Assembly (NCBI GenBank): GCA_963693285.1
Contig: OY848921.1
Coordinates: forward strand, 6,833,229 to 6,897,228
Direction of reading: 5' to 3'
Length of the DNA stretch: 64,000 nucleotides
DNA from: Xestospongia muta
Lineage: Eukaryota > Porifera > Demospongiae > Haplosclerida > Petrosiidae
Shown here: positions 2,143-57,400 of the stretch, in pieces
Layout: each line of letters opens with the position of its first letter
How positions within the stretch are numbered: the first letter of the stretch is position 1
Position numbers and translations under genes: made by a program
Notes under the pieces: model-generated
Database searches by the model: none
The model's input: only the letters and a program-made list of their open reading frames with translations
Told to the model about the DNA's origin: nothing

Positions 2143-2575
2143 GTAAGTTGAATATCACCTTATCTGATTGCTAATATAGCTTACATTATAAGTAAGTTTA
2201 ACTAAATGACTAAGTCTGTATTATTTTAATTTGTCTAAGTCAATAACGAGATCATGACACTGGTAATAGTCACCTGACTGTGACAATTATTGACCAAGTT
2301 CTGGGTGTCTCTAAGCTTGATAAAATTCTGTAAGAGATAGGAAGGAGTTTAACAACAAGTGTATATACTAGCAGAAGCTGTAAATATATAGCATCCACAA
2401 CTCATGTCAGGTCAAGTCAGATCATGTCTAGTCAGGACTGCCTCATATAACAATATAATAAAACAAAGGAGTGGAGATTAAATTTAAATAACACAAAATA
2501 TTGAATAGCTTCATAACATTATTGACCTGGTCATGCTGTCTTCTTTCAATGTGATTATAAACTTATAGTATATAT
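2143..2575. other. Presumed first intron of gene A, no gene seen
   Basis: AT-rich DNA. The left part aligns with block 3 (about 45395-45590) and then diverges. The coding start exon found in block 3 at 47979 was not found here or elsewhere upstream of array A. Confidence 0.6.
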
Positions 2576-5500
2576 ATTAGAAGTTGGTTTTAATGACAGT
2601 CCTTGTTCCTATGTGCCTTTCTTCCTTTTTATATTCCTGTAATGAAAAACATATACTCTCATTGTCACAACTATTTATAGATGGTAAGTATGTGCAATAT
2701 TCATGTGATCTCATTTACATTTTACCTTAATTGTGTAGTTGTTTATATTAATTAAAGTTATTAGGTTGTAATTACAATCTTTGTTACTATGTGTCTTTCT
2801 TTGTTTTTTATGTTCTTATAATGACCAATATATGTTCTCATTGTCACAACTATTTATAGGATGTAAGTATGTACAATGTCAATTCATGTGATCTTATTTG
2901 CAGTTTATCTTAATTGTGTATTTGTTTATATTGATTATTTAAATTGTGTAGTTGTTTATATTAATTAAAGTTATTAGCTTTTAATTACAATTCTTGTTAT
3001 TATATGTCTTTCTTCTTTTTTATGTTCCTATGACGACAAACCTATACTTTCATTGTCACAACTATTTATAGAGTGTAAGTGTGTACAATGTCAATTCATG
3101 TGATCTTATTTGCATTTTGTATTAATTGTGTATTTGTTTATAATAATTAAAATCCTTGTTACTATGTGTCTTTCTTTGTTTTTTATGTTCCTATGACGAC
3201 AAACCTATACTCTCATTGTCACAACTATATATAGTTTGTAAGTATTTACAATGTCAATTCATGTGATCTTATTTGCTTTTTATCTTCATTATATGGTAGT
3301 TTATATTAATTAAAACTTATTAGGTTTTAATTACAATTCTTGTTATTATATGTCTTTCTTCTTTCTTATGTTCCTATGATGACAAACCTATACTCTCATT
3401 GTCACAACTATTTATAGTTTGTAAGTGTGTACAATGTCAATTCATGTGATCTTATTTGCATTTTGTATTAATTGTGTTGTTGTTTATATTAATTAAAATC
3501 CTTATTACTATGTGTCTTTCTTTGTTTTTTACGTTCCTATAATGACAAACCTATACTCTCATTGTCACAACTATTTACAGTGGGTAAGTATTTACAATGT
3601 CAATTCATGTGATCTTATTTGCTTTTTATCTTAATTATGTGGTAGTTTATATTAATTAAAAGTTATTAGGTTTTAATTACAATTCTTGTTATTATATGTC
3701 TTTCTTCTTTCTTATGTTCCTATGATGACAAACCTATACTCTCATTGTCACAACTATTTATAGTTTGTAAGTGTGTACAATGTCAATTCATGTGATCTTA
3801 TTTGCATTTTGTATTAATTGTGTAGTTGTTTATATTAATTATAGTTATTAGGTTTTAATTAAAATCCTTGTTACTATGTGTCTTTCTTCTTTTTTATGTA
3901 CCTATGATGACAAATCTATACTCTCATTGTCACAACTATTTATAGAATGTAAGTGTGTACAATGTTAATTCATGTGATCTTATTTCCATTTTGTATTAAT
4001 TGTGTAGCTGTTTATATTAATTAAAATCCTTATTACTATGTGTCTTTCTTTGTTTTTTATGTTCCTATAATGACAAACCTATACTCTCATTGTCACAACT
4101 ATTTACAGTGGGTAAGTATTTACAATGTCAATTCATGTGATCTTATTTGCTTTTTATCTTCATTATATGGTAGTTTATATTAATTAAAAGTTATTAGGTT
4201 TTAATTACAATTCTTGTTATTATATGTCTTTCTTCTTTCTTATGTTCCTATGATGACAAACCTATACTCTCATTGTCACAACTATTTATAGATGGTAAGT
4301 ATGTACAATATCAATTCATGTGATCTCGTGTACATTTCATCTTGATTGTGTAGTTGATTATATTAATTAAAGTTATTAAGGTTTCATCACAGTCCTTGTT
4401 ACTATATGTCTTTCTTTGTTTTTTATGTTCCTATGATGACAAACCTATACTCTCATTGTCACAACTATTTATAGCGGGTAAGTATGTACAATGTCAATTC
4501 ATGTGATCTCATATACATTTTATCTTAATTCTATAGTTGTTTATATTAATTAAAGTTATAACGTTTTAATTATAGCCCTTGTTACTATGTGTTTTTCTTT
4601 TTTTCATATTCCTATGATGACAAACCTATACTCTCATTGTCACAATTATTTATAGAAGGTAAGTATGTGCAATGTCAATTCATGTGATCTTATGTACATT
4701 TTATCGTAATTCTATAGTTGTTTATATTAATTAAAGTTATTAAGGTTTAATTATAGTCCTTGTTACTATGTGTCTTTCTTTGTTTTTTATGTTCTTTTGA
4801 TGACAAACCTATACTCTCATTGTCACAACTATTTATAGGAGGTAAGTATGTACAATGTCAATTCATGTGATCTCATTTGCATTTTATCTTAATTGTATAG
4901 TTGTTGTTCTTATTAACTAAAGTTATTAGGTTTTAATTGCAGTCCTTGTTATAATATGTCTTTCTTTCTTTTTATGTTTCTATGATGATAAACCTATACT
5001 CTCATTGTCACATCTATTTATAGAAGGTAAGTATGAATAATGTCAATTCATGTGATCTTATTTGCATTTTATCTTAATTGTGTATTTGTTTATATTAATT
5101 AAACTTATTTGGTTTTAATTACAATTCTTGTTATTATATGTCTTTCTTCTTTTTTATGTTCCTATGATGATAAACCTATACTCTCATTGTCACATCTATT
5201 TATAGAAGGTAAGTATGTACAATGTCAATTCAAGTGATCTTATTTGCATTTTATTTTAATTGTGTATTTGTTTATATTAATTAAAGTTATTAGGTTTTAA
5301 TTGCAGTCCTTGTTATATTATGTCTTTCTTTCTTTTTATGTTCCTATGATGACAAACCTATACTCTCATTGTCAAAACTATTTATAGAGGGTAAGTATGT
5401 ACAATGTCAATTCATGTGATCTCATTTGCATTTTATCTTAATTGTGTATTTGTTTATATTAATTAAAGTTATTAGGTTTTGATTAAAATCTTTGTTACTA

Positions 5501-7630
5501 TGTGTCTTTCTTTGTTTTTTATGTTTCTATGATGACAAACCTATACTCTCATTGTCAAAATTATTTATAGAGGGTAAGTATGTACAATGTCAATTCATGT
5601 GATCTTATGTGCATTTTATTTTGATTGTGTAGTTGTTTATATTAAATAAAGTTATTAAGGTTTAATTACAGTCCTTGTTTTTTATGTTCCTATGATGACA
5701 AACCTTTACTCTCAATGTCACAACTCTTTATAGGAGGTAAGTATGTACAATGTCAATTCATGTGATCTTATATACATTTTATTTTGATTGTGTAGTTGTT
5801 TATAATATTTAAAGTTAATGGGTTTTAATTACAGTCCTTATTACTATGTGTCTTTCTTTGTTTTTTATGTTCCTATGATGACAAACCTATACTCTCAATG
5901 TCACAACTATTTATAGGAGGTAAGTATGTACAATGTCAATTCATGTGATCTTATGTACATTATATTTTTATTGCGTAGTTGTTTATAATATTTAAACTTA
6001 TTAGGTTTTAATTACAGTCCTTATTACTATGTGTCTTTCTTTGTTTTTTATGTTTCTATGATGACAAACCTATACTTTCATTGTCACAACTATTTATAGG
6101 AGGTAAGTATGTACAATGTCAATTCATGTGATCTTATGTGCATTTTATTTTGATTGAGTAGTTGTTTATAATAATTAAAATTATTAGGTTTTAATTATAG
6201 TTCTTATTACTATGTGTCTTTCTTTGTTTATTATGTTCCTATGATGACAAACCTTTACTCTCAATGTCACAACTATTTATAGGAGGTAAGTATGTACATT
6301 GTCAATTCATGTGATCTTATATACATTTTATTTTGATTGCGTAGTTGTTTATAATATTTAAAGTTAATGGGTTTTAATTACAGTCCTTATTACTATGTGT
6401 CTTTCTTTGTTTTTTATGTTCCTATGATGACAAACCTATACTCTCAATGTCACAACTATTTATAGGAGGTAAGTATGTACAATGTCAATTCATGTGATCT
6501 TATGTACATTTTATTTTTATTGCGTAGTTGTTTATAATATTTAAACTTATTAGGTTTTAATTACAGTCCTTATTACTATGTGTCTTTCTTTGTTTTTTAT
6601 GTTTCTATGATAACAAACCTATACTTTCATTGTCACAACTATTTATAGGAGGTAAGTATGTACAATGTCAATTCATGTGATCTTATATACATTTTATTTT
6701 GATTGCGTAGTTGTTTATAATATTTAAAGTTAATGGGTTTTAATTACAGTCCTTATTACTATGTGTCTTTCTTTGTTTTTTATGTTCCTATGATGACAAA
6801 CCTATACTCTCAATGTCACAACTAATTATAGGAGGTAAGTATGTACAATGTCAATTCATGTGATCTTATGTACATTTTATTTTTATTGCGTAGTTGTTTA
6901 TAATATTTAAACTTATTAGGTTTTAATTACAGTCCTTATTACTATGTGTCTTTCTTTGTTTTTTATGTTTCTATGATGACAAACCTATACTTTCATTGTC
7001 ACAACTATTTATAGGAGGTAAGTATGTACAATGTCAATTCATGTGATCTTATGTGCATTTTATTTTGATTGAGTAGTTGTTTATAATAATTAAAATTATT
7101 AGGTTTTAATTATAGTTCTTATTACTATGTGTCTTTCTTTGTTTTTTATGTTCCTATGATGACAAACCTTTACTCTCAATGTCACAACTATTTATAGGAG
7201 GTAAGTATGTACAATTTCAATTCATGTGATCTTATATACATTTTATTTTGATTGCGTAGTTGTTTATAATATTTAAAGTTAATGGGTTTTAATTACAGTC
7301 CTTATTACTATGTGTCTTTCTTTGTTTTTTATGTTCCTATGATGACAAACCTATACTCTCAATGTCACAACTAATTATAGGAGGTAAGTATGTACAATGT
7401 CAATTCATGTGATCTTATGTACATTTTATTTTTATTGCGTAGTTGTTTATAATATTTAAACTTATTAGGTTTTAATTACAGTCCTTATTACTATGTGTCT
7501 TTTTTTGTTTTTTATATTCTTATGATGACAAACCTATACTCTCATTGTTACATCTATTTATAGAGGGTAAGTATGTACAATGTCAATTCATGTGATTTTG
7601 TTACATTGATTGTGTAGTTTTTTTATATAA
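2576..7630 (+). repeat. Array A: 28 tandem repeats (about 181-183 bp), each holding a 3-base exon candidate
   Basis: Every unit has a pyrimidine-rich stretch (TGTGTCTTTCTTTGTTTTTT), a conserved CATTGTCACAAC or CAATGTCACAAC, an acceptor TATTTATAG (variants TACAG, AATTATAG), three variable bases, then GTAAGT. First bases of the triplets: 2681 ATG, 2860 GAT, 3072 AGT, 3235 TTT, 3418 TTT, 3581 TGG, 3764 TTT, 3946 AAT, 4109 TGG, 4292 ATG, 4475 CGG, 4656 AAG, 4839 GAG, 5024 AAG, 5206 AAG, 5388 AGG, 5571 AGG. Ten GAG follow at 5734, 5917, 6100, 6283, 6466, 6649, 6832, 7015, 7198 and 7381, then 7564 AGG. From 5734 on the period is exactly 183 bp, with a three-unit higher-order pattern. None of the 28 triplets is a stop, and acceptor and donor survive in all units. 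Confidence 0.95.
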
Positions 7631-8270
7631 ATTCAATGTCAGTGAAAGGCACTAAAGTGCCAAACCTTGCTGCAGTTTCTAAGTTATTTATAAATACTAT
7701 GCCAGTTAGGCCTAGCTTTGATGTTGCTAGGTAGCATTGCAAGAAAATTTATTAACATTCTAGAAGGTGTGGTCACAATTATCAATATTTCATATACAAA
7801 AGTTATTGTAACTTGAAGGTGAAACATTCTTTGGAAATGTCCTGTAGTACGCATATAAGTCAATATATTGTCTATTAGTAGTATTTTTTTAGTGCTTTGA
7901 GACGTTTCCTGAATGTGTCACTTCAATCGAAGTCCGTGTACAATCTTGAAAACACTTTTCAGAACTTTTATGATGATTGCTTTGACCAACGGCCTTCTGT
8001 CTTCTGATGCGTATTCCTAAGATTGTCTACAACATACTAAAAAGTCTCCACATTAATTTTTTTACTTTTTGAGAAATGGCAACTTGACCTCTGCAGTCTG
8101 AAAATTCTTTTGCAAGTTTTAAGCTTTCGTTTTCCTTGACAATGATGTTCTTGATACTACTATTGTAAAGTCCACACGTTTTATATTCATTGCTAAACGT
8201 TGGTAGCTGCTAATGCTTCGCTTGCCAAATTATAGCAGTTCAAAAACAATCCCCGGTAACAGGCAATGCA

Positions 8271-8303
<33 letters not shown>

Positions 8304-11300
8304 ACAGACTACAGTAACCTTGCTATGCGCCCAAGTACAGTGAGGTTAATGAAATCAAACTTAATAAAATGACACATATAGCAATGAATGAATATTATTA
8401 TCGTAAGCGCTTTGAAGTGGGTGTGATTGTTGGAAACTTCTGTGTTTTTAACCCAAAGAAAGATATTTAAGCAGTTACATAGCTTGTATTAATTCTCAAA
8501 TTATAATACTCATACATTCATTCCCTTACATCAACAACAGTATCATATTGGGTTGATATTTAGAAACATTTTTCTTGATCATATTGTTGTTTGTGTAACG
8601 AGTGTATTACAACAAACCTTGTCTGTATGTTATGTAATGTATTTATCATATGTTTGACTAATTATTTTAGTTGTCAATTAAGACCTTACCTTTGTCTATT
8701 GTCAGACTGTAGTGTCAATTAGTGTTAGTCAGTCCTTTTCATACTTGGTTTGTATCTCTTTTGTTGCCTTCCTCTTGTTTATTGTTCTTTGTTCTGTGCA
8801 CTCTATTTAAGTTCACTGTGTCTTCAAAGTTATGTGTGTTCTATTATTGTGTTTGTTGTTATAACAAGAGACAGTCTGCTAAACTTAGCTCTCAAGCAGG
8901 TTACATTTGTATTAATTGAAAATTATTAGGTTTTAATGACATTCCTTGTTACTATGTGTCTTTCTTTCTTTTTATTTTATGTAATGATAAACTTATATTG
9001 TAATTGTCATATTCTTTCATTGAGCTTGATAATACTTTGATTGGTGTCTTAGAACATATGCATATTGTAAACTACCTTATTGGAAATATTGTTAACTCTC
9101 ATTGCTTTCAGTATGGACAAAGATTACAGTACTTGCTTTGTGTGTGTGTCTGTCTGTTAACAGTCATTGTACTATGTACTGCTTGAACTCAATAAAGACA
9201 GTGTCTTACAGCTGCATTAGTTGACAGTGAGATGAAAACATTCTATAAATTCTTTCTAGCTAACAAGCTACTAAAGCACAGAAAAGGTGGAAGAGTTGAT
9301 TGGTACAATAAAACTACAATAATTTTCTAATAAGATGCAGGAATTTTCATAGAAATGCTTCATTTTGAAGTTATGAAGTCAAAAAACAGCCACTTGCAAA
9401 CATATGATTGTTAGTGACACCTGTTATGGTTAAATAGTTACCAGTCCTATGGTTTTTATCACCATATAGCACAGCCATTAATTTTTATTTAGCAAGTTCT
9501 CAGGTAGTGGCAGTATAACTATAACTAACATCATTCAGTATAATTCAGCCACCACTGCAGCAAGGGTTCTGCATTTTTGAACTAAGCTTTTCTTATGTCT
9601 TTTATACTTCTTTAAAATACCATTTGATAATTTGTTCTTAACAGTTATTACAAATTTACAGGATACTTAAATTGACTTGTTGTTTATTTTTTATGTCAAC
9701 CTTTTACCTGCTAATGTCAAACGGAACATATACATGTATAGAGGGAACTTGAAAGAGGTAAAGTATTTATATATTATTTAGTATTAGATTATAGTGCTAG
9801 GAAAGTTAGCAATATGATGTTGCTTCAAGTATACCTCTATAGAGTTACCATTGTCAGGGTTTCATTTAGGGGTGTGGGGGCATTCACTCCCCCTCTTGGA
9901 AATTAGGTTAGCCATTTTTTCAAGGGTTAATTGGATGTAATGACTACAGAACTGAAACTCAACACAAGGAATAAGCAACATAAGATAGCTTTAGGCTAAA
10001 CACAAGGAGAATGTACAGTTTTTAACCTAAACAGCTATTCTTCTACTCTTTCTGTTCCATGTATCTACAATGTCTTCAAGGTCACTATCCAGCAAAGTGT
10101 CAGGAGATTCAATGGCTATTTTCATAAGGTGTGAAAGGCTGGTGTTACTTAAGCGGTTGCGTTGACAAATTTTTATTAACTTCATCTGATAGAAGCTTCT
10201 CTCTACAAAGGCAGTAGCAATGGGAATGGACAGACTGATGGTTGAAAATTGTTCAAGTTCAGAAACATACTTTTAAGCATTTCATTTGTTGCTAATTCCT
10301 TCAATATGCAGAAATATGGTCATCTCATCATGTCATTTGAAAACCACAAATGGTCTGGAAATGTGCCAGAAGCGATCTCAGAGGGTCTAAAATTTTAAAA
10401 TTTCTGACCGGCATGCCTCCAGACCCCCCTAGAGAGCGCACTGTCACGCAGTCCCTTCACCTCCTCCCCCCCCCCCAATTTTCTCTAAATATTATTTGCC
10501 CCCTTGTCCATTTTTCTAAATGAAACCCTGATTATTTGTCTGCCATTGAGTTTTACTATTTAGTTGAAGTATAATATCATCATCAGCAATATTGTTTATA
10601 TCATTATTCTTATATCTTGTATCTGTGTAACTAGTCCTAATAACGTCTGTTAACTGGGTCTCAACCTTTCAATTTTCAGTTGAGGCATACCACAAATTAC
10701 ATTTGATGTTATTATAGTGTTGAATTTTGATAATAATATTGTATTACCAAATTATTCAGAAGCCTGATATTCCTATTGCACATTATTTAAGTTAATGTAA
10801 TCATTTCCTGTCACAGTATTTAATACCAAATCTTCATTTTTTGTGAATTGATGCTTCACAAATTTTAAATACCACCTATTTTCATTAACCAATAAATCTA
10901 TAGATAATAAAACAATTGTGACAATAATTAAATCCCTTAAAATGGTGACAGTTACTAGTCAAGTTTAAACTCTTGCAAATTTTATCATTTTATTAACTCT
11001 TCAGGTAGATGCTTTGAAACATGATTGATCATACCCATATTATAGCATTTGTAGTTATGAGGTAATCCTTTTGGTTAAAACAATATTAATTGGAACAACT
11101 GTCATGACTTATAATATTAAATGAAGTGTAATTATTATTGAAGTTTTGGTCAGAAACACAATGGTTTAGTAAATTTATATTCAATTAACAATGGTGGTTA
11201 AATTTATCTGATAGATTCCTATAAGAGAGCTCTAGCAAAAGGAGAAATGGATGTAGCATATGGACGTGTTATGTTACTTGGTTCAGCAGGGGTAGGGAAA

Positions 11301-14245
11301 AGTAGCTTAAAGCGATCGTTGATGAAGTTACCATGGCAACCTCACACTACCAGTACAATTATATCTGATGTCAACTGTTTTCGACCATTTGGACATGATT
11401 GGTATGGTACGAGCCTGGAAGATAATGACGACAAATGGAGAGAAGTAACCTTTGAAGATGAGATAGAAGAAATGGCACAGCTACTTACTATAGTATATAA
11501 AGATCGTTCCAGTCCCAGATCTGTGCTCAATACAATGGCAGCCTCAGTACTCTACCCTATAGCTGCTATGATGAGGGCTTCATCCTTATCTTCACAACTA
11601 GTTCAAGATATAGAGACCACCAAAGTTAATGAAATTCTTTCAAAAGCTATAGCTCGTTCTGAGCATATATCCACAGATGATCTTAGCAGTATTAAACCTC
11701 AGCCATTTTTACACATCTGGGATTGTGGTGGTCAGCCTGTTTTTCTTGAAATCCTCCCTGCCTTCCTTACTTCTCGTACATTGTTCCTCCTCTTGTTTGA
11801 TGCTTCTAAGGATCTTAATGAAATGTGGCAGTCTGTACAGAATATTGAGGGGAGGCAAATTTATGGTGAAAAGGAAAACATCAGCACACTTGATCTGATG
11901 CTCAACTGGATGGCTAACATTCATGGTCATCTCATTCGTCGGGAGATAGAAGGCAGTCTTTGTGAGTACCCTCGTATGTACTGCATTGGTACCCATGGTG
12001 ATGTCCTAAAGAACGATGAGAAGAAGAAAGCAGTTGTAGATGAGCTGGAGTCCAACTATAAAGATAAAGCATTTATGGAACTTGTTAAAGAAACTTTGAT
12101 TATTGACAACACCACTTCTGGTAAAGGAAAACATGAAGATCCAAATCTCATTAAGCTACGTAGAGCTATTTGTCAATTCACGTATGAAAAGCTCATTGTC
12201 AGGACTCCAGTTAGCTGGGTTCTCTTTCGCAAAATAATCCAAATGTTTGAAAAAAATGTTATTAATCTTGAAGAAGCTCATGCTATTGGAGTAGCTTGTA
12301 AAATACCTCATGATGATGTTCCAAAGGTCCTCCTATTTTATCATGATCTAGGAGTAGTGCTGTTCTATCCCCACATTACTGGTTTGAGAAACAAAGTTAT
12401 CATTAATCCTAAATGGTTTGTGGAAACACTTGGGAAAGTGTTTACACTAGATGGACAAGCTGATGGACAAACAAGACTAATGTGGACATTACTACAGGAA
12501 AAAGGCATTCTAGTAGAACCTTTTTATGTGTCCCTTTGGAAAGAATGTAGAGGAGACCTTAGTCCAGAAGCAATAATTGAACTTTTAGTTCATTTTCGCC
12601 TTGCTGCTAGTGTTACTACTAAGGTATATTATGATCGATCAGTCAAGCAGTATTTTTTGCCAGCCACACTTCCAACTTTCAAAGGAAATCCCAACAAAGC
12701 TCTACCAAGTTATCGTAATCAAGCTACTCCACTACATATCACTTTTAGCACAAAATTTGTACCTCCTGGTTTCTTCACGCGTTTCATTACCTCTCTGGCT
12801 AGTAATCCATCTTGTAAGCTTATGTTTAAATGTGGTATATATCGCAATCGTGTCACCTTTGTATATCACAAATCAGATGATCACATCACACTCACTGATC
12901 TCCACTATGCCATACAAGTTGATGTATTACGATATGCTCCAGCTAGCTTGGACATTCCATCCTTTGATACAATATGTCAAGAACTATTGAGTGTTCTTAA
13001 AAGTTGTGGAGATCTCGTTGAACAAACTCTTACAGGTCATTGGGGAATGATGAATGAATCCACTCAATCTGTCTCTATAGAGAGGGAATTTCAATATGTA
13101 TGTAGATCAAAAGAATGTGATCAATCTGAGGTTCATTACTTCAATATATCAGTAGACAAGTCTTCCATTTACTGTGAAAAGAGTATGTATAGATCATATC
13201 GTAGACCTACTGCTGACGAAAGAGTCTGGTTTGATGGATGGAATATACCAGAAGAGGTACAGTTCAGGAGAGTTCATTGTAATGTCTCAATATATTCTTT
13301 ATAGGCAGTGTCTCTTGAATCATCATCACCTCATGTATCAATGGTTTTAAGTACTACTGGTCAAAGTTGTGAGCAAGAGTCTCTTGAAGGTGAAATAGGT
13401 AAGTCAGTCTATGCATGTGAATTTTTATAGGGCCATTATAACTTATGATAAATATATGTACATAATTAGATTAATATTCTGTGGTCTTAATTAGTTTGAA
13501 CATGTGTATAGTCATCAAATAATACCACCTATATTGCACGATATATAAGCTCAGATCTATATTACACATTGTATTTGTCGTAGATATTTCTAACATTTTG
13601 TCAAAGGTTCATAGTGAGTATAATCAAATAATGTACTAGCAAAGAATAAATATTTGTAATTTGAATGAAGACATTCATTTTGCATATTGTGACAGATATT
13701 ACTGAAAATGTTTTTTTTTTGTTATTTACTGATTTTTTTCTTTTTTTTTTCATTCAGGTACATCTATTACTTATGATAGAGGTGTAAATTGTAAAGCTGA
13801 AGGTGAGTGTTAACTTAGTGCAGCACTTTTTATTTATGTTTTGTCCCTTCACTATAGATGATACTCTAAACTGTGAAATATGTAGAAGAACATTAATTCG
13901 ATATACTGACACTATTGTTCAGTCAAATATTGAACCCATTTCCTTAGCAAGGAAACTATATTCAGAAGAAATTATTTCTGAGGATGTTTACAAAATTGTT
14001 AAAGACAAAAAAACAAGAGATACTAATGCAGATCGTCTTGACTATATTCTTGATGATCTAAAGGATCGTGTCAAATACAGTTCTAGCGCCTTCATTATTT
14101 TCCTGGATATTTTGAGACATGATAGTTTAAATCAACAAGACTTAGCTGACAAAATAATGTCAAAATATAAAGGTATGATAAATATATTAAATGCTTGCTG
14201 TAATAATTACTCTTTTTTCTTTTAGAACTGGTTACACAAAAGTAA
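2681..14245 (+). CDS. Gene A: Roc-COR GTPase with CARD tail and N-terminus built from single-codon exons
   Basis: Predicted exons: the 28 triplets of array A (2681..7566), 9742..9757, 11215..13256, 13305..13398, 13758..13802, 13858..14172 and 14226..14245. All phases fit and sum to 871 residues. The P-loop is GSAGVGKSS (ORF residues 12-20, counting M at 11247 as 1). The switch II motif is WDCGGQ (158-163) and the base-recognition motif is THGD (249-252). COR follows (about 315-580). About 140 residues separate P-loop and switch II, longer than usual for Roc. The CARD-like exon (13858-14172) is an all-helical Death-fold of about 105 residues; the protein ends VTQK. The 48-base intron 13257-13304 ends in an in-frame TAG, so retention truncates the protein before the CARD. 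An optional 30-base exon (13584-13613) also fits phase 1-1. Microexon inclusion is inferred from phase; the Roc-COR exon is intact and certain. Confidence 0.8.
7631..9741. other. Intron between array A and the 16-base exon
   Basis: No gene supported. About 7640-8330 is unlike the rest and is absent after array B, so it may be an inserted sequence. It reads partly open on the minus strand but with stops, and I cannot name it. It ends at a CA microsatellite. A decayed array unit lacking splice sites is visible at about 8920-9020 (TTATTAGGTTTTAATGAC, then CTATGTGTCTTTCTTTC). Confidence 0.6.
8272..8301. repeat. (AC)n microsatellite
   Basis: Fifteen uninterrupted AC dinucleotides inside the intron after array A. 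Confidence 0.95.
9742..9757 (+). other. 16-base exon of gene A
   Basis: AGGGAACTTGAAAGAG lies between a TGTATAG acceptor and a GTAAAG donor and codes RELER plus one base. The flanks (GAACATATACATGTATAG upstream, GTAAAGTATTTAT downstream) recur at 30947, 33741 and 52722 with the exon always 16 bases. It converts the phase 0 end of the single-codon exons to the phase 1 start of the GTPase exon. Confidence 0.75.
9855..10530 (-). mobile_element. hAT-type DNA transposon remnant with terminal inverted repeats
   Basis: The ends are inverted repeats, CAGGGTTTCATTTAG at 9855 and its complement ending at 10530. On the minus strand about 10027-10230 reads as the C-terminal hATC dimerisation region of a transposase (ATAFVERSFYQMKLIK, later NRLSNTSLSHLMKIAIES, ending RRIAV and stop). 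The element is internally deleted and non-autonomous. A clear 8-bp target duplication is not visible. It lies in the intron before the GTPase exon. The equivalent block 3 intron (about 53860) lacks it, so it inserted after duplication or was lost there. Confidence 0.8.
10531..11214. other. Intron of gene A, no further features
   Basis: AT-rich sequence alignable with 53870-54404 in block 3. It ends at the acceptor TTATCTGATAG. Confidence 0.7.
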
Positions 14246-24000: not shown

Positions 24001-24756
24001 AGAGTTAGAAAATGTGCAAGTTACCATAGCATTGTTTAAAATAGTCATTCAGCATATTTCCACTAAATTAACACTGACAAATTACATCATAAAACTATAT
24101 ACCTTTTTGTGTTCACAATAATATGTACTGTTGAAAGATTTCAGTTAACAAAATATATTGTTTATTCTACACTTTTTACTACTGTCACTGATAAGCTCAA
24201 ACAAATATTTTTTTCTTAAATTGTATGTAATTGTATTAATATATACCTTGTTGGTAGAATATACTAAATATAGTATAATGGAATATATGGAATATATTTC
24301 ACTATACTGTCTTGATGAATGTATAATGTATTTATAATGGGTAGCGTTTAGAGTACCAGTAATCAAATTCCATATTTTAATGTAAAATTAAAGCATTTCG
24401 GTTCCTGTGATTAAGGTTTAGGGTCTAGGGTAAATATAATATTAATTTCACATTAAAATATTGCATTCCTTTCCTGACACACTAGACACTGCTGCCTAAA
24501 CAATAACTAGTATTTGAAAAGGAATTAAGTTGTAATTTAATAGCTAGCTGTAGTGTAAATTTAATAGCTAGCTGTAGGCTTGATGTACAGTGAGAACAAT
24601 TAGAATGGTTATATAACATAAACATGAGCTTTCCTGCCTATATTGTTCTCTATGTTTTATTGCAAGACATGTTAGTGATGATACCACGTAGCTATACAAA
24701 GCAAAACTTTTTAGCTCCTCCCTTTATAATCATACCTTAGGGCAATCACCACAAAG
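21036..24756. repeat. Upstream region of kinase-like gene 1 with an internal tandem duplication
   Basis: 22185-22505 recurs at about 23380-23735 (GTACTGGACAATAA, ACTTACTTAATTAAATGG and so on), and 22990-23360 recurs at about 23740-24110. The unit is therefore about 1.2 kb, with roughly 0.5 kb deleted from the second copy. The same DNA lies before kinase-like copy 2 (38230-39300) in single form. No gene supported; a small minus-strand open frame at 24145-24366 has no support. The proximal 60 bases (AGCTCCTCCCTTT, GGGCAATCA, AAAGATGG) are shared with copy 2 and are the likely core promoter. Confidence 0.65.
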
Positions 24757-30290: not shown

Positions 30291-30790
30291 ATTGTAGTGA
30301 CATTCCTTGTTACTATGTGTCTTTCTTTCTTTTATGTTCCTGTAACGACACCCTGTATTCTCATTGCATAACAATTTATAGAAAGTAAGTATGTATAATG
30401 GCAATTCATGAGATCTTGTTTACATTTTATTCTGATTGTGTATTTTTTAATAATATTTTTATAATAATAAAGTTATTAACTGTAATTGATAGTCCTTGTT
30501 ACTGTGTCATTATTTTTTTATGTTCTATAATGACAAACTATAATCTAAATCTGACAACTACTTATAGCCAGACAGTATGTACAATATTAATTCATGTGAA
30601 CACATTTATGTTTTATCTTGATTGTGTAGTTGTTTAAAATAATTCAAATTATTAGGTTTTAATGACAATCCATGTTACTATGTGTCTTTCTTTTTTTTAT
30701 GTTCCTGTGGTAAAATCTATGTATATTCTCATTGTCATATTAACTATTTATAGAGAGTAAGTATGCACAATGTCAATTCTTATGATCAAA
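30291..30790 (+). repeat. Decayed three-unit codon array of block 2
   Basis: Three units related to arrays A and B. Unit 1: TTTATAG, AAA (30382-30384), GTAAGT. Unit 2: TTATAG, CCA (30568-30570), then GACAGT, so the donor is lost. Unit 3: TTTATAG, AGA (30754-30756), GTAAGT. Intervals are near 186 bp. Beside a dead GTPase copy the splice sites have begun to erode, unlike arrays A and B. Confidence 0.85.
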
Positions 30791-30946: not shown

Positions 30947-33345
30947 AAGGAAGATGAAAGAAGTAAAGTATTTATGTATTACTTAATATAACATTATAAT
31001 GCTGCAAAAGATAACAATACAATTTTGTCAATCATTAGCTCTACCAAATTATCGTCTTCAAGCTACTCCACTACATATCACTTTTAGCACAAAATTTGTA
31101 CCTCCTGGTTTCTTCACACGTCTCATTACCTCTCTTGCCAGTAATTCATTTTGTGAGCTGATGTTTAAATGTACTATATCGCAATTGTGTCACTTTTGTT
31201 TATCACAAATCAGATGATTACATCACACTCACTGATCTCCACTTTGCTATACAAGTTGATGTATTATGATATGCTCCAGTTACCTTGGACATTCCATCCT
31301 TTGATATAATATGTCAAGAACTATTGAGTGTTCTTAAAAGTTGCGGAGATCTCATTGAACAAACTCTTATAGGTCATTGGGGAATGATGAATGAAGCCAC
31401 TCAATCTGTCTCTATGGAGAAGGAATTTCAATTGTATGTGATCAAAAGAATGTGATCAATCTGAGGTTCATTACTTCAATATATCAGTAGACAAGTCTTC
31501 CATTCACTGTGAAAAGAGTATGTATAGATCATATCGTAGACCTACTGCTGAGGAAAGAGTCTGGATTGATAAATGGAACATATCGAAAGAGGTACAGTTC
31601 AGGAGAGTTCATTGTAATGTCTCAATGTATTCTTTATAGGGAATATCTCTTGAATCATCATCACCTCCTATAACCATGGTGTCTAGTGCTACTGGTCAAA
31701 TTTGTCAGCAGGAGTCTCTTGAAAGTAAAATAGGTAAGTCAGTCTATGCATGTTAACTTTTATGTATCCATTATAACTTATGATAAATACATGTACATGA
31801 TCAGATTAATGTTTTGTGGTCTTAATTAGATTGAACATGTGTATAGGTCATCAAATAATCCTGCCAATATTACACAATGTATAAGCTCAGATCTATACTT
31901 ATATATATATTGTATTTATTGTAGATATTTCTGACATTTTGTCAAAGGTTCCTATTTTTAAAGATGTTCTCCCTTTGCTCATTCCCATTATGGATCAGTG
32001 GTATACTATTGGTTGTGCTTTAGCCATCAATCCTAGCAAGCTTGATAGTTTAGAACAAAGGCCTAAAGCAGTTAAAGTAAAGCTCTCTAAAGTCATCACG
32101 TTTTGACAGATAGAAAAAGCTAATGCAGCTACATGGAGAGAGCTACTTGAGGCAGTTGAAGGTAAAATTGTAGATAACCATCAAGTTGGTGAGGATATTC
32201 ATCAGTTTTTGACAAACCAAGTATACTTCAAAGAAGGTATGTTATTTGAAGTAATGCCATTGAGTTTCAACAAAAGTTTAGTTATTGTATATGATTTTCA
32301 AAGCTACCAAATAAAATTAATCCATATGAAGTAACCGCCAGTTCATATTGTAATCAATGAATATAATTACTGCTACTGTGAGCATCAAAGTAATCTAAGG
32401 ATGTTTTTAATGATCGTTATCTTGTTTCACCTATATATCTATACAGAGTTTAGCAAGGTGTGTTAGCATAATCATTCAGGTTAATAATAAAATTAATACA
32501 TTTTGTCTTCTTTAGGCTTAGGAAACAGTCATTAATTTTATAGTATGTAGTATAACAATCTTATAACAGTACTTTTTAATTATTTTGTTAAGAAGATAAT
32601 AGTTCCGAAAGTTAGCATAAGTAAGTGTAAGCAATAATTTAAATGATACAAAATGGTTAGTCATGTTGATGGATAAAAGGATGAAGATATATAAGAGGAA
32701 AGGAGTTGCCACAAAAACCTATTTCCTATAAATAACTAGTAATGATGCTTTCAGCTTCACTTGAGTCCCATCATACTTTAGCTATCATCAAAAGAACATG
32801 AGTAAGGTAAACATTGTTGTAAGCATAGGATACATTGAGTTTTATATTTACAATACTAAAACAAGTAAAATACAATATTGTACTTTGTTATTTTAATAGT
32901 GAAAAAAATTTTTTACTCTACAGCAAGAGATCAAAAGTAACAATTCTTAGCACATAATTATCATACAGGATACCTCATATTTAGCTAAGCAAATAAATGT
33001 TGTGTATAACATTTTTATATAATAACATTGTTCCTTTTATCCAAAAAATTATTATTTCTATCTTTGAAATATGCACTCAAAAAAGTGAGTGTTTGTTAAA
33101 GCCTATAGACTAGAAGATTGATATAAGTAAAATGATTTGCAAAAGATAATATGTAGTGGTATTATCTTTATACAGGGCAAATTTCCAGCACATTGATGTA
33201 TATGCATTGCTAAATTATTTTGGGAACACCCATTAGCCCCGTATTTCCACAACCTAGTTATATCCTTTGTCTGTATCCTTCCATTTTATAGATTCTCTAG
33301 AGAAAGGAGTTGTTCATTCGAAATTCATTGACACTTCGAAAACAA
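30947..33345 (+). pseudogene. GTPase copy C1: truncated Roc-COR-Death relic
   Basis: The 16-base exon is at 30947-30962 (last base A). After about 65 bases of intron a deletion joins directly to the late COR segment (31027 onward, LPNYRLQATPLHITFSTK). Frameshifts and a TGA (CGA in gene A) follow. The short exon 31640..31733 and a full-length 312-base Death exon (31925..32236) remain, but the Death exon has TGA at 32104-32106 for tryptophan. Linker exon 33292..33345 is present and the membrane exon is deleted. It cannot make a GTPase. Confidence 0.88.
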
Positions 33346-36034: not shown

Positions 36035-36060
36035 GTGAGTATAATCAAATAATCTACTAA

Positions 36061-47963: not shown

Positions 47964-48008
47964 CACATATTACTGACTATGGCTGAAAGAAATGAAAGAC
48001 CAGGTTTG
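47964..48008 (+). other. Start exon of gene B
   Basis: After acceptor TTATTACTAG the exon runs to a GTAAGT donor at 48009. ATG at 47979 opens MAERNERPGL and ends exactly in phase 0, as required for adding single codons from array B. No equivalent was found upstream of array A. Confidence 0.65.
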
Positions 48009-48289: not shown

Positions 48290-51200
48290 CTCACTTGTTG
48301 TGATATGTCTTTCTTTTTTTTATGTTCCTATGATGACAAACCTATACTCTCATTGTCACAACTATTTATAGCTGGTAAGTATGTACAATGTCAATTCATG
48401 TGATCTCATTTGCATTTTATCTTAATTGAGTAGTTGTTTATATCAATTAACCTTATTAGGTTTTAATTATAATCCTTGTTACTATGTGTCTTTCTTTCTT
48501 TTTTATGTTTCTCTGATGACAAACCTATACTCTCATTGTCACAACTATTTATAGATGGTAAGTATGTACAATGTCAATTCATGTGATCTTATTTGCATTT
48601 TATCTTAATTGAGTAATTGTTTATATCAATTAAAGTTATTAGGTTTTAAATACAATCCTTGTTACTATGTGTCTTTCTTTGTTTTTATGTTCCTATGATG
48701 ACAAACCTATACTCTCATTGTCACAACTATTTATAGAGGGTAAGTATGTACAATGTCAATTCATGTGATCTCATTTGCATTTTATCTTAATTGAGTAGTT
48801 GTTTATATCAATTAACCTTATTAGGTTTTAATTATAATCCTTGTTACTATGTGTCTTTCTTTCTTTTTTATGTTTCTCTGATGACAAACCTATACTCTCA
48901 TTGTCACAACTATTTATAGATGGTAAGTATGTACAATGTCAATTCATGTGATCTTATTTGCATTTTATCTTAATTGAGTAGTTGTATATATTAATTAAAG
49001 TTATTAGGTTTTAATTACAATCCTTGATACTATGTGTCTTTCTTTCTTTGTATGTTCCTCTGATGACAAACCTATACTCTTATTGTCACAACTATTTATA
49101 GTGGGTAAGTATGTACAATGTTAATTCATGTGATCTCATTTGCATTTTATCTTAATTGTGTATTTGTTTATATCAATTATCGTTATTAGGTTTTAATTAC
49201 AATCCTTGTTACTATGTGTCTTTCTTTGTTTTTATGTTCCTATGATGACAAACCTATACTCTCATTGTCACAACTATTTATAGAGGGTAAGTATGTACAA
49301 TGTCAATTCATGTGATCTCATTTGCATTTTATCTTAATTGAGTAGTTGTTTATATCAATTAACCTTATTAGGTTTTAATTATAATCCTTGTTACTATGTG
49401 TCTTTCTTTCTTTTTTATGTTTCTCTGATGACAAACCTATACTCTCATTGTCACAACTATTTATAGATGGTAAGTATGTACAATGTCAATTCATGTGATC
49501 TTATTTGCATTTTATCTTAATTGAGTAGTTGTATATATTAATTAAAGTTATTAGGTTTTAATTACAATCCTTGATACTATGTGTCTTTCTTTCTTTGTAT
49601 GTTCCTCTGATGACAAACCTATACTCTTATTGTCACAACTATTTATAGTGGGTAAGTATGTACAATGTTAATTCATGTGATCTCATTTGCATTTTATCTT
49701 AATTGTGTATTTGTTTATATCAATTATCGTTATTAGGTTTTAATTACAATCCTTGTTACTATGTGTCTTTCTTTGTTTTTATGTTCCTATGATGACAAAC
49801 CTATACTCTCATTGTCACAACTATTTATAGGAGGTAAGTATGTACAATGTCAATTCATGTGATCTCATTTGCATTTTATCTTAATTGAGTAGTTGTTTAT
49901 ATCAATTAATGTTATTAGGTTTTAATTACAATCCTTGTTACTATGTGTCTTTCTTGTTTTTATGTTCCTATGATGACAAACCTATACTCTTATTGTCACA
50001 ACTATTTATAGTGGGTAAGTATGTACAATGTCAATTCATGTGGTCTCATTTGCTTTTTATCTTAATTGAGTAGTTGTTTATATCAATTATCGTCATTAGG
50101 GTTTAATTACAATCCTTATTTCTATGTATTTTTCTTTCTTTTTTATGTTCTTATGATGACAAACCTACACTCTCATTGTCACAACTATTTATAGTGGGTA
50201 AGTATGTACAATGTCAATTCATGTGGTCTTATTTGCATTTTATCTTAATTGTGTAGTTGTTTATATTAATTAAAGTTATAAGGTTTTAATTACAATCCTT
50301 GTTACTATATATTCTTCTTTCTTTTTTATGTTTTTATGATGACAAACCTACACTCTTATTGTCACAACTATTTATAGATAGTAAGTTTGTACAATGTCAA
50401 TTCATGTGATCTCATTTGCATTTTTTCTTAATTGAGTATTTGTTTATATCAATTATCGTTATTAGGTTTTAATTACAATCCTTGTTACTATGTGTCTTTC
50501 TTTGTTTTTATGTTCCTATGATGACAAACCTATACTCTCATTGTCACAACTATTTATAGGAGGTAAGTATGTACAATGTCAATTCATGTGATCTCATTTG
50601 CATTTTATCTTAATTGAGTAGTTGTTTATATCAATTAATGTTATTAGGTTTTAATTACAATCCTTGTTACTATGTGTCTTTCTTGTTTTTATGTTCCTAT
50701 GATGACAAACCTACACTCTCATTGTCACAACTATTTATAGGAGGTAAGTATGTACAATGTCAATTCTTGTGATCTTATTTGCATTTTATCTTAATTGAGT
50801 AGTTGTATATATTAATTAAAGTTATTAGGTTTTAATTACAATCCTTGTTACTATGTGTCTTTCTTTCTTTGTATGTTCCTCTGATGACAAACCTACACTC
50901 TCATTGTCACAACTATTTATAGCGGGTAAGTATGTACAATGTCAATTCATGTGATCTCATTTGCATTTTATCTTAATTGAGTAGTTGTTTATATCAATTA
51001 ACGTTGTTAGGTTTTAATTACAATCCTTGTTACTATGTTTTTTTCTTTTTTATGATCTTATGATGACAAACCTACACTCTCATGGTCACAACTATTTAAA
51101 GTTGGTAAGTATGTACAATGTCAATTCATGTGATCTTACTTGCATTTTATCTTAATTGAATAGTTGTTTATATCAATTAACGTTATTAGGTTTTAATTAC

Positions 51201-52025
51201 AATCCTTGTTACTATGTTTTTGTTTTTTTTTATGTTCTTATGATGACAAACCTACACTTTCATGGTCACAACTATTTATAGTTGGTAAGTATGTACAATG
51301 TCAATTCATGTGATCTTACTTGCATTTTATCTTAATTGAATAGTTGTTTATATTAACTAAATTTATTAGGTTTTAATTACAATCCTTGTTACTATGTTTT
51401 TTTGTTTGTTTTTATGTTCCTCTGATGACAAACCTATACTCTCATTGTCACAACTATTTATAGGTGGTAAGTATGTACAATGTCAATTCATGTGATCTCA
51501 TTTGCATTTAATCTTAATTGTGTAGTTTCTTGTATTAATAATAGTTATTAGGTTTTAATTACATTCTTTGTTACTATTTGTCTTTTTTTTATGTTCCTAT
51601 GATGACAAACCTATACTCTCATTGTCACAACTATTTATAGGGGGTAAGTATGTACAATGTCAATTCATGTGATCTTATTTACATTTTGTCTTAATTGTGT
51701 AGTTGTTTATATTCAATTAAAGTTATTAGGTTTTAATTACAATCCTTGTTACTATGTGTCTTTCTTTGTTTTTTTATGTTCTTATGATGATAAACATATA
51801 CTCTCATTGTCACAACTATTTATAGAGGGTAAGTATGTACAATGTCAATTCATGTGGTCTCATTTGCATTATATCTTAATTGTGTAGCTGTTTATATTAA
51901 TTATAGTTATTAGGTTTTAATTACAGTCCTTGTTACTATATGTCTTTGTTTGTTATGTTCTTATGACAACAAACCTATACTCTTAATGTCACAACTATTT
52001 ATAGGGGGTGAGTATGTACAATGTC
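48290..52025 (+). repeat. Array B: 21 tandem repeats (about 182 bp), each holding a 3-base exon candidate
   Basis: Same unit design as array A. Triplet first bases: 48372 CTG, 48555 ATG, 48737 AGG, 48920 ATG, 49102 TGG, 49284 AGG, 49467 ATG, 49649 TGG, 49831 GAG, 50012 TGG, 50195 TGG, 50378 ATA, 50560 GAG, 50741 GAG, 50923 CGG, 51102 TTG, 51282 TTG, 51464 GTG, 51641 GGG, 51826 AGG, 52005 GGG. All have AG before and GTAAGT after (the last has GTGAGT; the one at 51102 has AAAG). Twenty of 21 end in G, which suits a donor. Units 3-5 and 6-8 form a 547-bp higher-order duplication, and units 9-10 and 13-14 one of 729 bp. In order the codons read L,M,R,M,W,R,M,W,E,W,W and then I,E,E,R,L,L,V,G,R,G. 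Confidence 0.95.
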
Positions 52026-52721
52026 AATAAACTAAGTTACTAGGAATATTGTTAATAGTCATTGCTCTTAGTCTAGGCAGGCATTACAGTACTTGCTTTG
52101 TATATATGTTTGTTTCTGTCTGTTAACAGACAGTGTACTCTGAAGTGCTTACCAAAGATATTATCTAAAGCTGCAAATTTGGGAAGGAGATAAAAAAGTT
52201 TAGCACTATGAATTATTTCTAGTTAACTGGTTTTCAACAAGATGGAAGATTTGATCACTACAGTAATTTACTAATAAGATGTGGATATTTTCATAGAAAT
52301 GCTTTATTTTGAAGTTATTGAGTCAAAAAACGTCACTTGCAAACACACAACTGTTATAACACACCTGTAAAATTAAACATTTGGCAGTCCTATGGTTTTT
52401 ATCACCTTATACCACATCCATTAATTTCTATTTAGTAAGTTCTCAGGTAGTGGTAGTATGACCAACTAAAATCATTCAGTATAATTTAGCCACTACTACA
52501 GCAAGTGTTCTGTACTTTAGTGCTTTTTTCTTTGTCAATTATTGAACTAAGCTTTGCTTATGTTTTTTATATTTTTATTTAAAAACACCTTTCTGACCAT
52601 TTGATGATAATATGTTCTTATCAGTTATTTACAAATTTACAGGATACTTAATTGATTTGTTGTTTATTTTTTATGTCAATGATTTACCTGCTGATATCAA
52701 ATGGAACATATACATGTATAG
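52026..52721. other. Intron between array B and the 16-base exon
   Basis: Aligns with about 9040-9741 in block 1. No gene seen. Confidence 0.6.
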
Positions 52722-52737
52722 AGGGATGATGAAAGAG
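52722..52737 (+). other. 16-base exon of gene B
   Basis: AGGGATGATGAAAGAG between TGTATAG and GTAAAG; codes RDDER plus one base, continued by AT at 54405 (aspartate). Confidence 0.75.
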
Positions 52738-54404: not shown

Positions 54405-57400
54405 ATGCCTATAAGAGAGCTCTAGCAGAGGGAGAAATGGATGTAGCATATGGACGTGTTATGTTACTTGGTTCAGCTGGAGTAGGGAAAAGTAGCTTAA
54501 AGCGATCATTGATGAAGTTACCATGGCAACCTCACACTACCAGCACCATTATATCTGATGTTACATGTGTTCGACCATTTGGACATGAGTGGTATTCTAT
54601 GAGCTTGGAAGATACTGATGACAAATGGAGAGAAGTAACCTTTGAAGACGAGATAGAAGAAATGGCACAACTTCTTACTCTAGTATATAAAGATCATTCC
54701 AGTCCCAGATCTGTGCTCAATACAGTGGCAGCCTCAGCACTCTATCCTATAGCTGCTATGATGAGGGCTTCATCCTTATCTTCACAACTAGTTCAAGATA
54801 TAGAGACCACTAAAGTCGAGGAAATTCTTTCAAAAGCTATAGCTCGTTCTGAGCATATATCCAGAGGTGATCTTAGCAATATTAAACCTCAGCCATTTTT
54901 GCACATCTGGGATTGTGGTGGTCAGCCTGTTTTTCTTGAAATCCTCCCTGCCTTCCTGACTCCTCGTACATTGTTCCTCCTCCTGTTTGATGCCTCTAAG
55001 GATTTCAATGAAAGATGGCAGTCTATACAGAATATTGAGGGGAAGCAAATTTTTGGTGAGGAAGTAAACATCAGCACACTTGACCTGATGCTCAACTGGA
55101 TGGCTAACATTCATGGTCACCTCGTTTGTCGTAACAAAGAAGGCGGTCTTTGTGAGTACCCTCGTATGTACTGCATTGGTACATATGGTGATGTCTTAAA
55201 GACCAACGAGAAGAAGAAAGCAGTTGTAGATGAGCTGGAGTCCAACTACAAAGATAAAGCATTTATGGAACTTGTTAAAGAAACTTTGATTATCGACAAC
55301 ACCACTTCTGGTAAAGGATAACATGAAGATCCAAATCTCATTAAGCTACGTAGAGCTATTTGTCAGTTCACATATGAAAAGCTCATTGTCAAGACTCCAG
55401 TTAGCTGGGTTCTCTTTCGTAAAATAATCCAAATGTTTGAAAAGAATGTAATCGATCTTGAAGAAGCTCATGCTATTGGAGTAGCTTGTAAAATACCTCA
55501 TGATGATGTTCCAAAGGTCCTCCTGTTTTATCATGATCTAGGAGTAGTACTGTTCTATCCCCACATTACTGGTTTGAGAAACAAAGTTATCATTAATCCC
55601 AAATGGTTTGTGGAAACGCTTGGGAAAGTGTTGACACTAGATGGACAAGCTGATGGACAAACAAGACTAATGTGGACATTACTACAAGAAAAAGGCATCC
55701 TAGTACAACCATTTTATGTGTCTCTTTGGAAAGAATGTAGGGCAGACCTTAGTCCAGAAGCAATAATTGAACTTTTAGTTCACTTTCGCCTTGCTGTCAA
55801 AGTTACTACTAAAGTATATTATGATCGAACAGTCAAGCAGTATTTTTTGCCAGCCACACTTCCAACTTTCAAAGAAGATCCCAACGAAGCTCTACCAAGT
55901 TATCATCTTCAAGCTACCCCATTGCATATCACTTTTAGCACAACATTTGTGCCTCCTGGTTTCTTTACACGTCTCATTACCTCTCTGGCTAGTAATCCAT
56001 CTTGTGAGCTTATGTTTAAATGTGGTATATATCGCAATCGTGTCACCTTTGTATATCACAAATCAGATGATTACATCACACTCACTGATATGCACTATGC
56101 TATACAAGTTGATGTATTACGATATGCTCCAGTTACCTTGGAAATTCCATCCTTTGATACAATATGTCAAGAACTATTGAGTGTTCTTAAAAGTTGTGGA
56201 GATCTCGTTGAACAAACTCTTACAGGTCATTGGGGAATGATGAATGAATCCACTCAAGCTGTCTCTATGGAGAGGGAATTTCAATATGTATGTAGATCAA
56301 AAGAATGTGATCAATCTGAGGTTCATTACTTCAATATATCAGTAGACAAGTGTTCCATTTACTGTGAAAAGAGTATGTATAGATCATATCGTAGACCTAC
56401 TGCTAAAGAAAGAGTCTGGTTTAATGGATGGAACATACCAGAAGAGGTACAGTTCAGGAGAGCTCATTGTAATATCTCAATATATTCCTTGTAGATAGTG
56501 TCTCTTGAATCATCACCTCCTATAACCATGGTGTCAAGTGCTACTGATCAAAGTTGTCAGCAAGAGTCTCTTGACAGTAAAATAGGTAAAATAGTCAGTC
56601 TATGCATGTTAATTTTTATGTATCCATTATAACTTATGATAAATACATGTACATAATCAGATTAATGGTTTGTGGTCTTAATTAGTTTGAACATGTGTAT
56701 AGTCATCAAATAATACCACCCATATTGAAAGCTCAGATCTATACTTATATATATTGTATTTATTGTAGATATTTCTGACATTTTGTCAAAGGTTCCTATT
56801 TTTAAAGATGTTCTCTCTTTACTTATTCCTATTATGGATCAGTGGTATACTATTGGTTGTGCTTTAGCCATCAATCCTAGCAAACTTGATAGTTTAGAAC
56901 AAAGTAACGAAGCAGTTAAAGTAAAGCTCTCTAAAGTCATCACATATTGGCAGAGAGAAAAAGCTAGTACAGCTACATGGAAAGAGCTACTTGAGGCAGT
57001 TGAAGGTAAAATTATAGATAATCGTCAAGTTGGTGAGGATATTCGTCAGTTTCTGACAAACCAACTATACTTCAAAGAAGGTATGTTATTTGAAGTAATG
57101 CCATTGAGTTTAAACAAAATTTTAGTTATTGTATGTGATTTTCAAAGCTACCAAATAAAATTAATCCATATGAAGTAACTGCCAATTCATATTGTAATCA
57201 ATGAATATAATTACTGCTACTGTGAGCATCAAAATAATCTAGGGACATTTTTAATGATCATTATCTTTTTTCACCTATATATCTATACAGATTTTAGCAA
57301 GGTATGTTGGCATAATCATTCAGGTTAATAATGAAATACATTTTGTCCTCTTTAAGCTTAAGAAACAGTTATTAATTGTATAGTATGTACTATAACAATC

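Follow-up and report, generated by a model that had tools for sequence, protein, structure and literature searches.

The window analysed here, 64,000 nucleotides (nt) from the genome of the sponge Xestospongia muta (contig C5, C5:6833229-6897228, in an assembly of 158 Mb and 28 contigs), contains tandem arrays of repeat units that each carry a candidate exon of exactly one codon, lying ahead of genes for ROCO GTPases. We consider it probable, at roughly 0.76, that these consecutive one-codon exons are spliced sequentially into an N-terminal tail of 20-60 residues on the GTPase. In array 1, which precedes gene 1 (Table 1), AG, exactly three bases and GTAAGT follow one another in 28/28 units, just as a first-pass annotation of this DNA had described; the acceptor reads TATAG in 26 units and TACAG in two, and the units are spaced 163-212 bp apart, mostly 181-185. 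The triplets are, in order, ATG GAT AGT TTT TTT TGG TTT AAT TGG ATG CGG AAG GAG AAG AAG AGG AGG, then GAG ten times and AGG, so that, again in agreement with that annotation, 0/28 are stops and no splice site is lost. An in-silico splice of the 28 triplets to the 16-nt exon and the exon starting at 11215 gives a stop-free multiple of three, and the frame is open from the first ATG (MDSFFWFNWMRKEKKRREEEEEEEEEER-RELER-DSYKRALAKGEMDVAYGRVMLLGSAGVGKS...), which bears out the proposed coordinates and phases and the matching phase of the two downstream exons. The AG acceptor is kept before the ATG, which makes an upstream 5′ untranslated exon likely. The stretch with ten GAG exons has a two-unit period of 366 bp, which indicates unit duplication, and these ten units suggest that a homopolymer may have grown through duplication of whole exon cassettes.

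The exon behind the array places the protein in a known family. Searched against Pfam, the large exon of gene 1 scored 41.8 bits for Roc (cut-off 27) and 47.4 bits for COR-A (cut-off 35.3), and since both lie above the curated cut-offs, with Roc followed by COR in one protein, gene 1 encodes a ROCO GTPase. In this it resembles other sponge ROCO GTPases, as in predictions from Amphimedon queenslandica: the only named relatives among the 120 matches listed of 667 were four predicted proteins of that species, at 45-51% identity. None of these four (P0060, P0092, P0099 and P0101) carries an array-type tail, and each is predicted to begin at or close to the Roc domain; since exons of 3 nt would escape gene prediction, the missing tails are weak evidence of absence. 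All 11 intermediate exons that the pattern search recovered have a length of 16 nt, and in all nine ROCO exons whose start was found the reading continues in phase 1. Array 1 opens with ATG, whereas three of the arrays examined follow an in-frame MAERNERP(G/S)L exon. The MAERNERPGL exon itself has six copies in the genome at up to three mismatches, on one strand and all within C5:6.42-6.88 Mb.

The core pattern of the repeat in array 1, hereafter family 1, was matched 49 times in the window at up to three mismatches, against 0.00 expected from 100 shuffles, which rules out chance. Genome-wide, the same tolerance gave 845 forward and 0 reverse matches, not all of which need be intact, and a reversed-pattern control gave 0. 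Family-1 sites among the matches listed all lie in one ROCO cluster at C5:6.24-6.91 Mb, and a genome-wide search for the pattern of the 16-nt exon gave 26 occurrences, every one on the plus strand of C5:6.25-6.91 Mb. This cluster holds 22 matches to the ROCO first exon (short pieces left out), of which 18 are stop-free over the 200 residues matched. A profile search of 287.7 kb yielded a working set of 447 family-1 units, all on the plus strand, in 435 of which the triplet is flanked by intact AG and GT, as in a microexon (at most 30 nt between spliceosomal sites); the statistics on stop triplets rest on those 435. Beyond what the first-pass annotation had noticed, the window holds a second full array and a degenerate third, hundreds more units exist in the genome, and ATG emerges as a possible start.

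Several lines of evidence suggest that the triplets are codons. Across the 447 units, the triplet columns are only 50% identical to the consensus (37%, 33% and 78% at the first, second and third positions), and are thus hypervariable inside conserved flanks, where mean identity is 94% at positions -83 to -45, 96% at -44 to -8, 95% at +7 to +31, and 91% at +32 to +79; the contrast between constant flanks and differing triplets, first remarked on in array 1, therefore extends over the whole set (50% versus 91-96%). Triplets are inherited with their units, being shared by 95% of 56 pairs with identical flanks and by about 9% of pairs at about 90% flank identity. Stops occur in 0/435 triplets against 19.6 expected, and in 0/258 against 10.9 expected in a collapsed set that merged units alike in triplet and no less than 95% identical in their flanks; in each case zero was reached in 0/10000 permutations. 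Genome-wide, 0/445 family-1 units with exact flanks carry TAA or TAG. The third base (440 units) is G in 78%, T in 14%, A in 7.5% and C in none. The prevalence of G can be attributed to the preference of a strong donor for G, and T follows the code, occurring in 55/283 triplets of split codon boxes, where it alters the residue, versus 6/152 of fourfold boxes, where it is silent (Fisher 2e-6; collapsed set 0.0015). In addition, the paralogous arrays from C5:6327444 and 6390415 onwards have the same first 20 codons in the same order (AWWDYTEGLSVTDPESPYYE) but for three synonymous differences, at a chance of about 0.011, while their introns differ at 132/3968 sites; the nucleotide alignment covered 57/60 exon bases and 76/80 splice-site bases.

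These observations bear on whether the arrays might instead control expression, with a chain of recursive or decoy splice sites slowing or tuning ROCO mRNA and the triplet acting as a spacer. Acceptor and donor are 3 nt apart, as in recursive sites, and the AG-ended triplets (GAG, AAG and CAG; 113/435) would permit a zero-length reading; the 21 triplets of the 435 that begin with GT are all GTG. A spacer needs no code, yet stops are absent, the third base follows the code, change over 20 codons is synonymous only and the first two bases are hypervariable, and the array of gene 1 supplies an ATG in frame with ROCO. We therefore regard this explanation as very unlikely. Recursive splicing was also considered as the principal explanation and rejected, since most triplets are not AG-ended (322/435 lack AG directly before GT, where a recursive site would leave no residue) and the triplets look coded.

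The splice sites of family 1 appear to be under constraint. Identity to the consensus over the 447 units is 99.5% for AG and 99.9% for GT, and either dinucleotide is broken by substitution in 5/440 full-length units, versus about 69 (of 447) expected if they drifted like nearby intron. Degenerate arrays account for two of the five broken units, and the other three are a unit at an array end, a unit ahead of an ATG triplet and the unit at C5:6422632. A scanning spliceosome needs an AG-free stretch ahead of the acceptor, and changes creating AG were seen 24 times at -75 to -7 against 117 expected, versus 160 times at +7 to +75 against 142 expected, and AG shows the strongest depletion of all 16 dinucleotides on the upstream side (ratio 0.21). 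Retention of the splice sites and avoidance of AG support, indirectly, the presence of the array exons in mature mRNA. They also weigh on the notion of an ordinary tandem satellite, intronic or upstream, whose splice-like words descend from one unit and are never spliced. The units do expand and shrink as satellites do, the 366-bp higher-order period included, and their flanks are similar to one another; the rarity of AG/GT loss, the avoidance of AG upstream of acceptors and not downstream, and the diversity of triplets set against the identity of their flanks, with no stops in 435, leave such a satellite a reading to which we give hardly any credence.

A second repeat family with the same plan in the same place, in another ROCO cluster, is a further point against a satellite. 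This family (family 2) was found 5′ of a ROCO gene at C1:8.19 Mb (locus L051), whose ROCO is 53% identical and of which 3.7 kb upstream was examined. The locus has 17 units with a period of about 146 bp, most ending in TATAATAG followed by NNN and GTAAGT, and 15 of the 17 have intact microexon splice sites. Their triplets are TTA ATA GAT CCA AAG TAT GAT CTG GAT CTG AAT GAT CTG GTG CGG GTG GAG, and the AG-free run before the acceptor is 74-112 bases long in all 15 units examined of the 17. L051 also has a 16-nt exon ahead of its ROCO exon (L051:2679-2694), from which it follows that the gene plan is common to both families and the repeat unit not recognisably so. Indeed, an nhmmer search with the family-1 profile gave no significant match in family 2 (best E about 0.1, nearly all of it inside the splice core); common descent of the two repeat families was set aside on this result, with which an ancient kinship would be compatible. 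Genome-wide, the family-2 pattern had 702 matches at up to three mismatches (659 forward and 43 reverse), and as with family 1 not all need be intact. Among the matches listed, family-2 arrays lie on C1 (8.18-9.04 Mb) and C12 (2.90 Mb), and seven ROCO matches have the last listed family-2 unit 1.2-4.1 kb upstream on the same strand. Among the family-2 units with exact flanks genome-wide, seven triplets are of the form TAN.

Comparison among paralogues suggests that the predicted tails evolve faster than the GTPases they would precede. In seven paralogues for which array peptides are available, the ROC regions show 87-96% identity over 300 residues. Of the 21 tail pairs, only 6340744/6403514 is clearly alike (46/58); 6426973 and gene 2 share 15/31, a common start exon included, and the remaining 19 pairs show 3-13 identities over 13-47 aligned residues, figures not calibrated against shuffled peptides. 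The ROC of gene 1, for example, is 95% identical to that of the gene at C5:6372841, but the tails of these two open with MDSFFWFNWMRKEK and (M)GNPFPFRRPRREPQ, respectively. Units lacking a full triplet, an isolated GAG unit at C5:6369340 and the unit whose acceptor is broken do not enter the compared peptides, to which we added an initial M from ATG units up to about 3.6 kb upstream, their presumed starts; the comparison covers arrays with a ROCO exon in the examined DNA, apart from the degenerate one ahead of the ROCO at C5:6276612. Composition varies widely, some tails being rich in E and R, some in P, and some in G, A, M and L. One ends in PKKKRVRR, which we take to resemble a basic nuclear-targeting motif, and the concatenated peptide of the C5:6508105 array contains an internal repeat, EPVPFEDF, spanning many units.

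The main rival is regulated or combinatorial inclusion, in which the cassette codons would be used as a subset per cell or per transcript, by Dscam-like choice or stochastic skipping, giving many N-termini per gene. It needs no extra sequence feature. All array exons are 3 nt, so that any subset keeps the frame, splice sites are near-identical in all units with no obvious reason for strict order, and the broken acceptor at C5:6422632 would merely drop one residue. Two paralogous arrays, however, keep 20 codons in the same order, and repeats of the EPVPFEDF type run across units as if the joined sequence mattered, a picture that unit duplication would also give; picking one residue of 28 would moreover be an odd use of mutual exclusion. 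We judge combinatorial inclusion unlikely. Among the roles that the first-pass annotation had listed, an N-terminus built stepwise fits best, and its reading of the triplets as in-frame single-codon exons is favoured by the absence of stops, the third base, AG depletion, splice-site retention, synonymous change, hypervariable triplets and family 2.

Under the stepwise reading, each repeat unit, mostly of about 183 bp, would be an intron-exon-intron cassette whose exon is one phase 0-0 codon. We infer that the exons are actually spliced, most or all of them included in order, with the spliceosome joining the codons probably by intron definition over introns of about 180 nt with near-ideal GTAAGT donors. 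The tail would thus be assembled one residue per exon, followed by the 16-nt exon and then the Roc-COR exon downstream. Unequal exchange between units may have inserted, deleted and repeated single residues without frameshift. Because each exon is self-contained and frame-neutral, such exchange would change the tail residue by residue in frame, which would allow it to diverge quickly among paralogues while the GTPase part stays 87-96% identical. Splicing constraint and exchange would keep the introns alike, and selection on the protein would keep or diversify the codons; these forces are not distinguishable in the present data. A ROCO signalling protein may use the tail for targeting or for choosing its partners. 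A bolder version, which we hold as conceivable but doubtful, is that the germline edits a protein residue by residue, with constant introns and diversified codons; the result would be a variable recognition tail on sponge ROCO proteins (some perhaps with Death domains), with isoforms multiplied by frame-free skipping, possibly for immune or self/non-self signalling, on a plan that arose or was re-clothed at least twice in one genome.

A number of points weigh against sequential splicing of one-codon exons. Exons of 3 nt are hard for spliceosomes, and with dozens of them in a row near-perfect efficiency would be needed at each for a uniform product. The family-1 units are related by duplication, and counts made on them are mostly non-independent. 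Twelve of the 447 lack an intact AG-NNN-GT; these are deletions, members of degenerate arrays or array ends, one unit at the edge of the examined DNA, one before ATG, and the unit at C5:6422632, where the acceptor is broken inside an otherwise intact array. AG is not alone in being low upstream of acceptors (GA 0.39, CC 0.44), and when AG-creating changes are counted as distinct changes seen at least three times the contrast is milder, with 4/22 upstream versus 13/26 downstream. The zero-length reading of the 113 AG-ended triplets, with the acceptor directly at the donor, could cost the codon. Past their first 20 codons, the two paralogous arrays differ at 23/38 aligned triplets, 21 of the differences being non-synonymous, in units that perhaps do not correspond one to one. 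Family 2 contributes two further points: at L051 the donor is broken (GGACGT) in 2/17 units, both GAT and one apparently a duplicate of the other, and TAA or TAG occurs in 1/319 exact-flank units (C12:2900241, in an array that lies ahead of a ROCO frame without stops). Lastly, array 2, which keeps every acceptor and donor across its 21 units, may belong to a damaged gene, given the in-frame stop in the ROCO exon of gene 2, although the array itself is intact as far as seen.

The features of the window are collected in Table 1. Searches of positions 2400-10000 with Rfam at gathering thresholds gave no noncoding RNA match, no tRNA was found across the window, and just two open reading frames of at least 50 aa (50 and 52 aa) lie within array 1. 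Upstream of that array, a diverged direct repeat starting with GATGATCCTAATGTCCTG was noted by eye, with copies about 950 bp apart at about 305-500 and 1250-1450; downstream of the gene 1 ROCO exon, an exon-like frame at 13788-14225 has a weak CARD-like match of 17.2 bits, under the cut-off. The three units of degenerate array 3 lie in surroundings at about 30340-30790, adjoined at 31000-38000 by degenerate ROCO copies with interrupted frames. A frame encoding a protein kinase and a coiled coil is present in three copies (24730-26586, 39701-41557 and 59929-61557), one behind each ROCO region; the Pfam scan covered copy 1, and copy 2 has a stop at 40766-40768.

Table 1 Arrays, exons and associated features in the window (positions of the window).
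Feature	Position	Strand	Description
Array 1	2576..7630	+	28 units, each an intron half plus AG-NNN-GTAAGT; MDSFFWFNWMRKEKKRREEEEEEEEEER if all spliced in order
First triplet, ATG	2681..2683	+	Probable initiator codon, a role suggested by the open frame
E10 tract, ten consecutive GAG exons	5734..7383	+	Stretch with 366-bp two-unit period
16-nt exon, gene 1	9742..9757	+	AGGGAACTTGAAAGAG then GTAAAG; phase 0 in, phase 1 out; RELER + 1 nt
Roc-COR (ROCO) GTPase exon, gene 1	11215..13256	+	Phase-1 entry (D-SYKRALAKGEMDVAYGRVMLLGSAGVGKS); candidate donor at the 3′ boundary
Degenerate array 3	30382..30756	+	AAA, CCA (donor broken: GACAGT), AGA; precedes ROCO copy with stop
16-nt exon homologue, cassette 3	30947..30962	+	Another copy at 33741-33756
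Candidate first coding exon, gene 2	47979..48008	+	ATGGCTGAAAGAAATGAAAGACCAGGTTTG then GTAAGT; 30 nt, MAERNERPGL, donor phase 0
Array 2	48306..52028	+	21 units, LMRMWRMWEWWIEERLLVGRG; final donor GTGAGT
16-nt exon, gene 2	52722..52737	+	AGGGATGATGAAAGAG
ROCO exon region, gene 2 (Roc then COR-A)	54405..56494	+	Broken by in-frame TAA at 55319-55321
Downstream exon, gene 2	56768..57082	+	Death-domain-like; Pfam 20.7 bits, just under the 22.6 cut-off

If sequential splicing of these exons is correct, one animal genome would hold well over a thousand one-codon exons, with exon size, exon density and splicing fidelity far past the cases we found described, in a gene plan where the introns are conserved and the exons are the variable part. 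Insertion and deletion at the level of the residue would have a route to evolve without frameshift, and 20-60 consecutive 3-nt exons would provide a natural testbed for how the spliceosome handles them. It would also caution that gene prediction can readily overlook N-termini of this kind.

A 1988 paper reportedly described, in S. mansoni, exons repeated in tandem that encode 81-base repeats, and RPS24 is said to be a further case of a single microexon of 1-3 nt. Searches of the open-licence PMC literature for 3-nt, single-codon and tandem microexons listed no report of arrays of one-codon exons, nor did those on the neighbouring subjects of micro-exon genes, sponge ROCO proteins and bicycle genes, which agrees, within that literature, with the statement of the first-pass annotation that it knew of no long tandem array of three-base exons. 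To our knowledge a design in which each repeat unit holds one codon and the introns are constant while the exons vary is undescribed, and it would be new on condition that RNA bears it out. In plants, single 1-nt exons are spliced, and that of VPS55 has conserved GTRAGT donors, according to the excerpted text of one study (PMC8831610). Cases such as APC11 and VPS55 resemble the arrays in that exons of 1-3 nt can be spliced, and differ, as far as those excerpts go, in being single or few and, for the plant 1-nt exons, well conserved, unlike the hypervariable triplets described here.

Genes rich in short exons offer a closer comparison. Aphid bicycle genes have about 17 exons on average, the internal ones almost all phase 2, and a megacycle gene has more than 100 microexons (PMC9168663, in the portions consulted). 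They share with the sponge genes many small exons of uniform phase and a fast-evolving protein; the phase is 2 there versus 0 here, and those portions describe neither tandem repeated intron units nor one-codon exons. The micro-exon genes (MEGs) of Schistosoma have 10-20 very short exons per gene, mostly of 15 bp, with a size range of 6-81 bp in the body text and 3-81 in the abstract, introns of 0.1-5 kb and secreted products (PMC10526429, from a partial text). MEGs and the sponge arrays have in common many short exons, mostly multiples of three, and a variable protein, with MEG variants arising, in that partial text, mainly from alternative splicing of central exons. On the same basis, the array exons differ in being exactly one codon, set in tandem units of about 183 or 146 bp, with runs of up to about 58 ahead of a GTPase domain. 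A MEG is for the most part made of very short exons, whereas here microexons are confined to the N-terminal tail, the Roc-COR exon of gene 1 being 2042 nt long. By this analogy, the arrays would act like a micro-exon gene taken to its limit.

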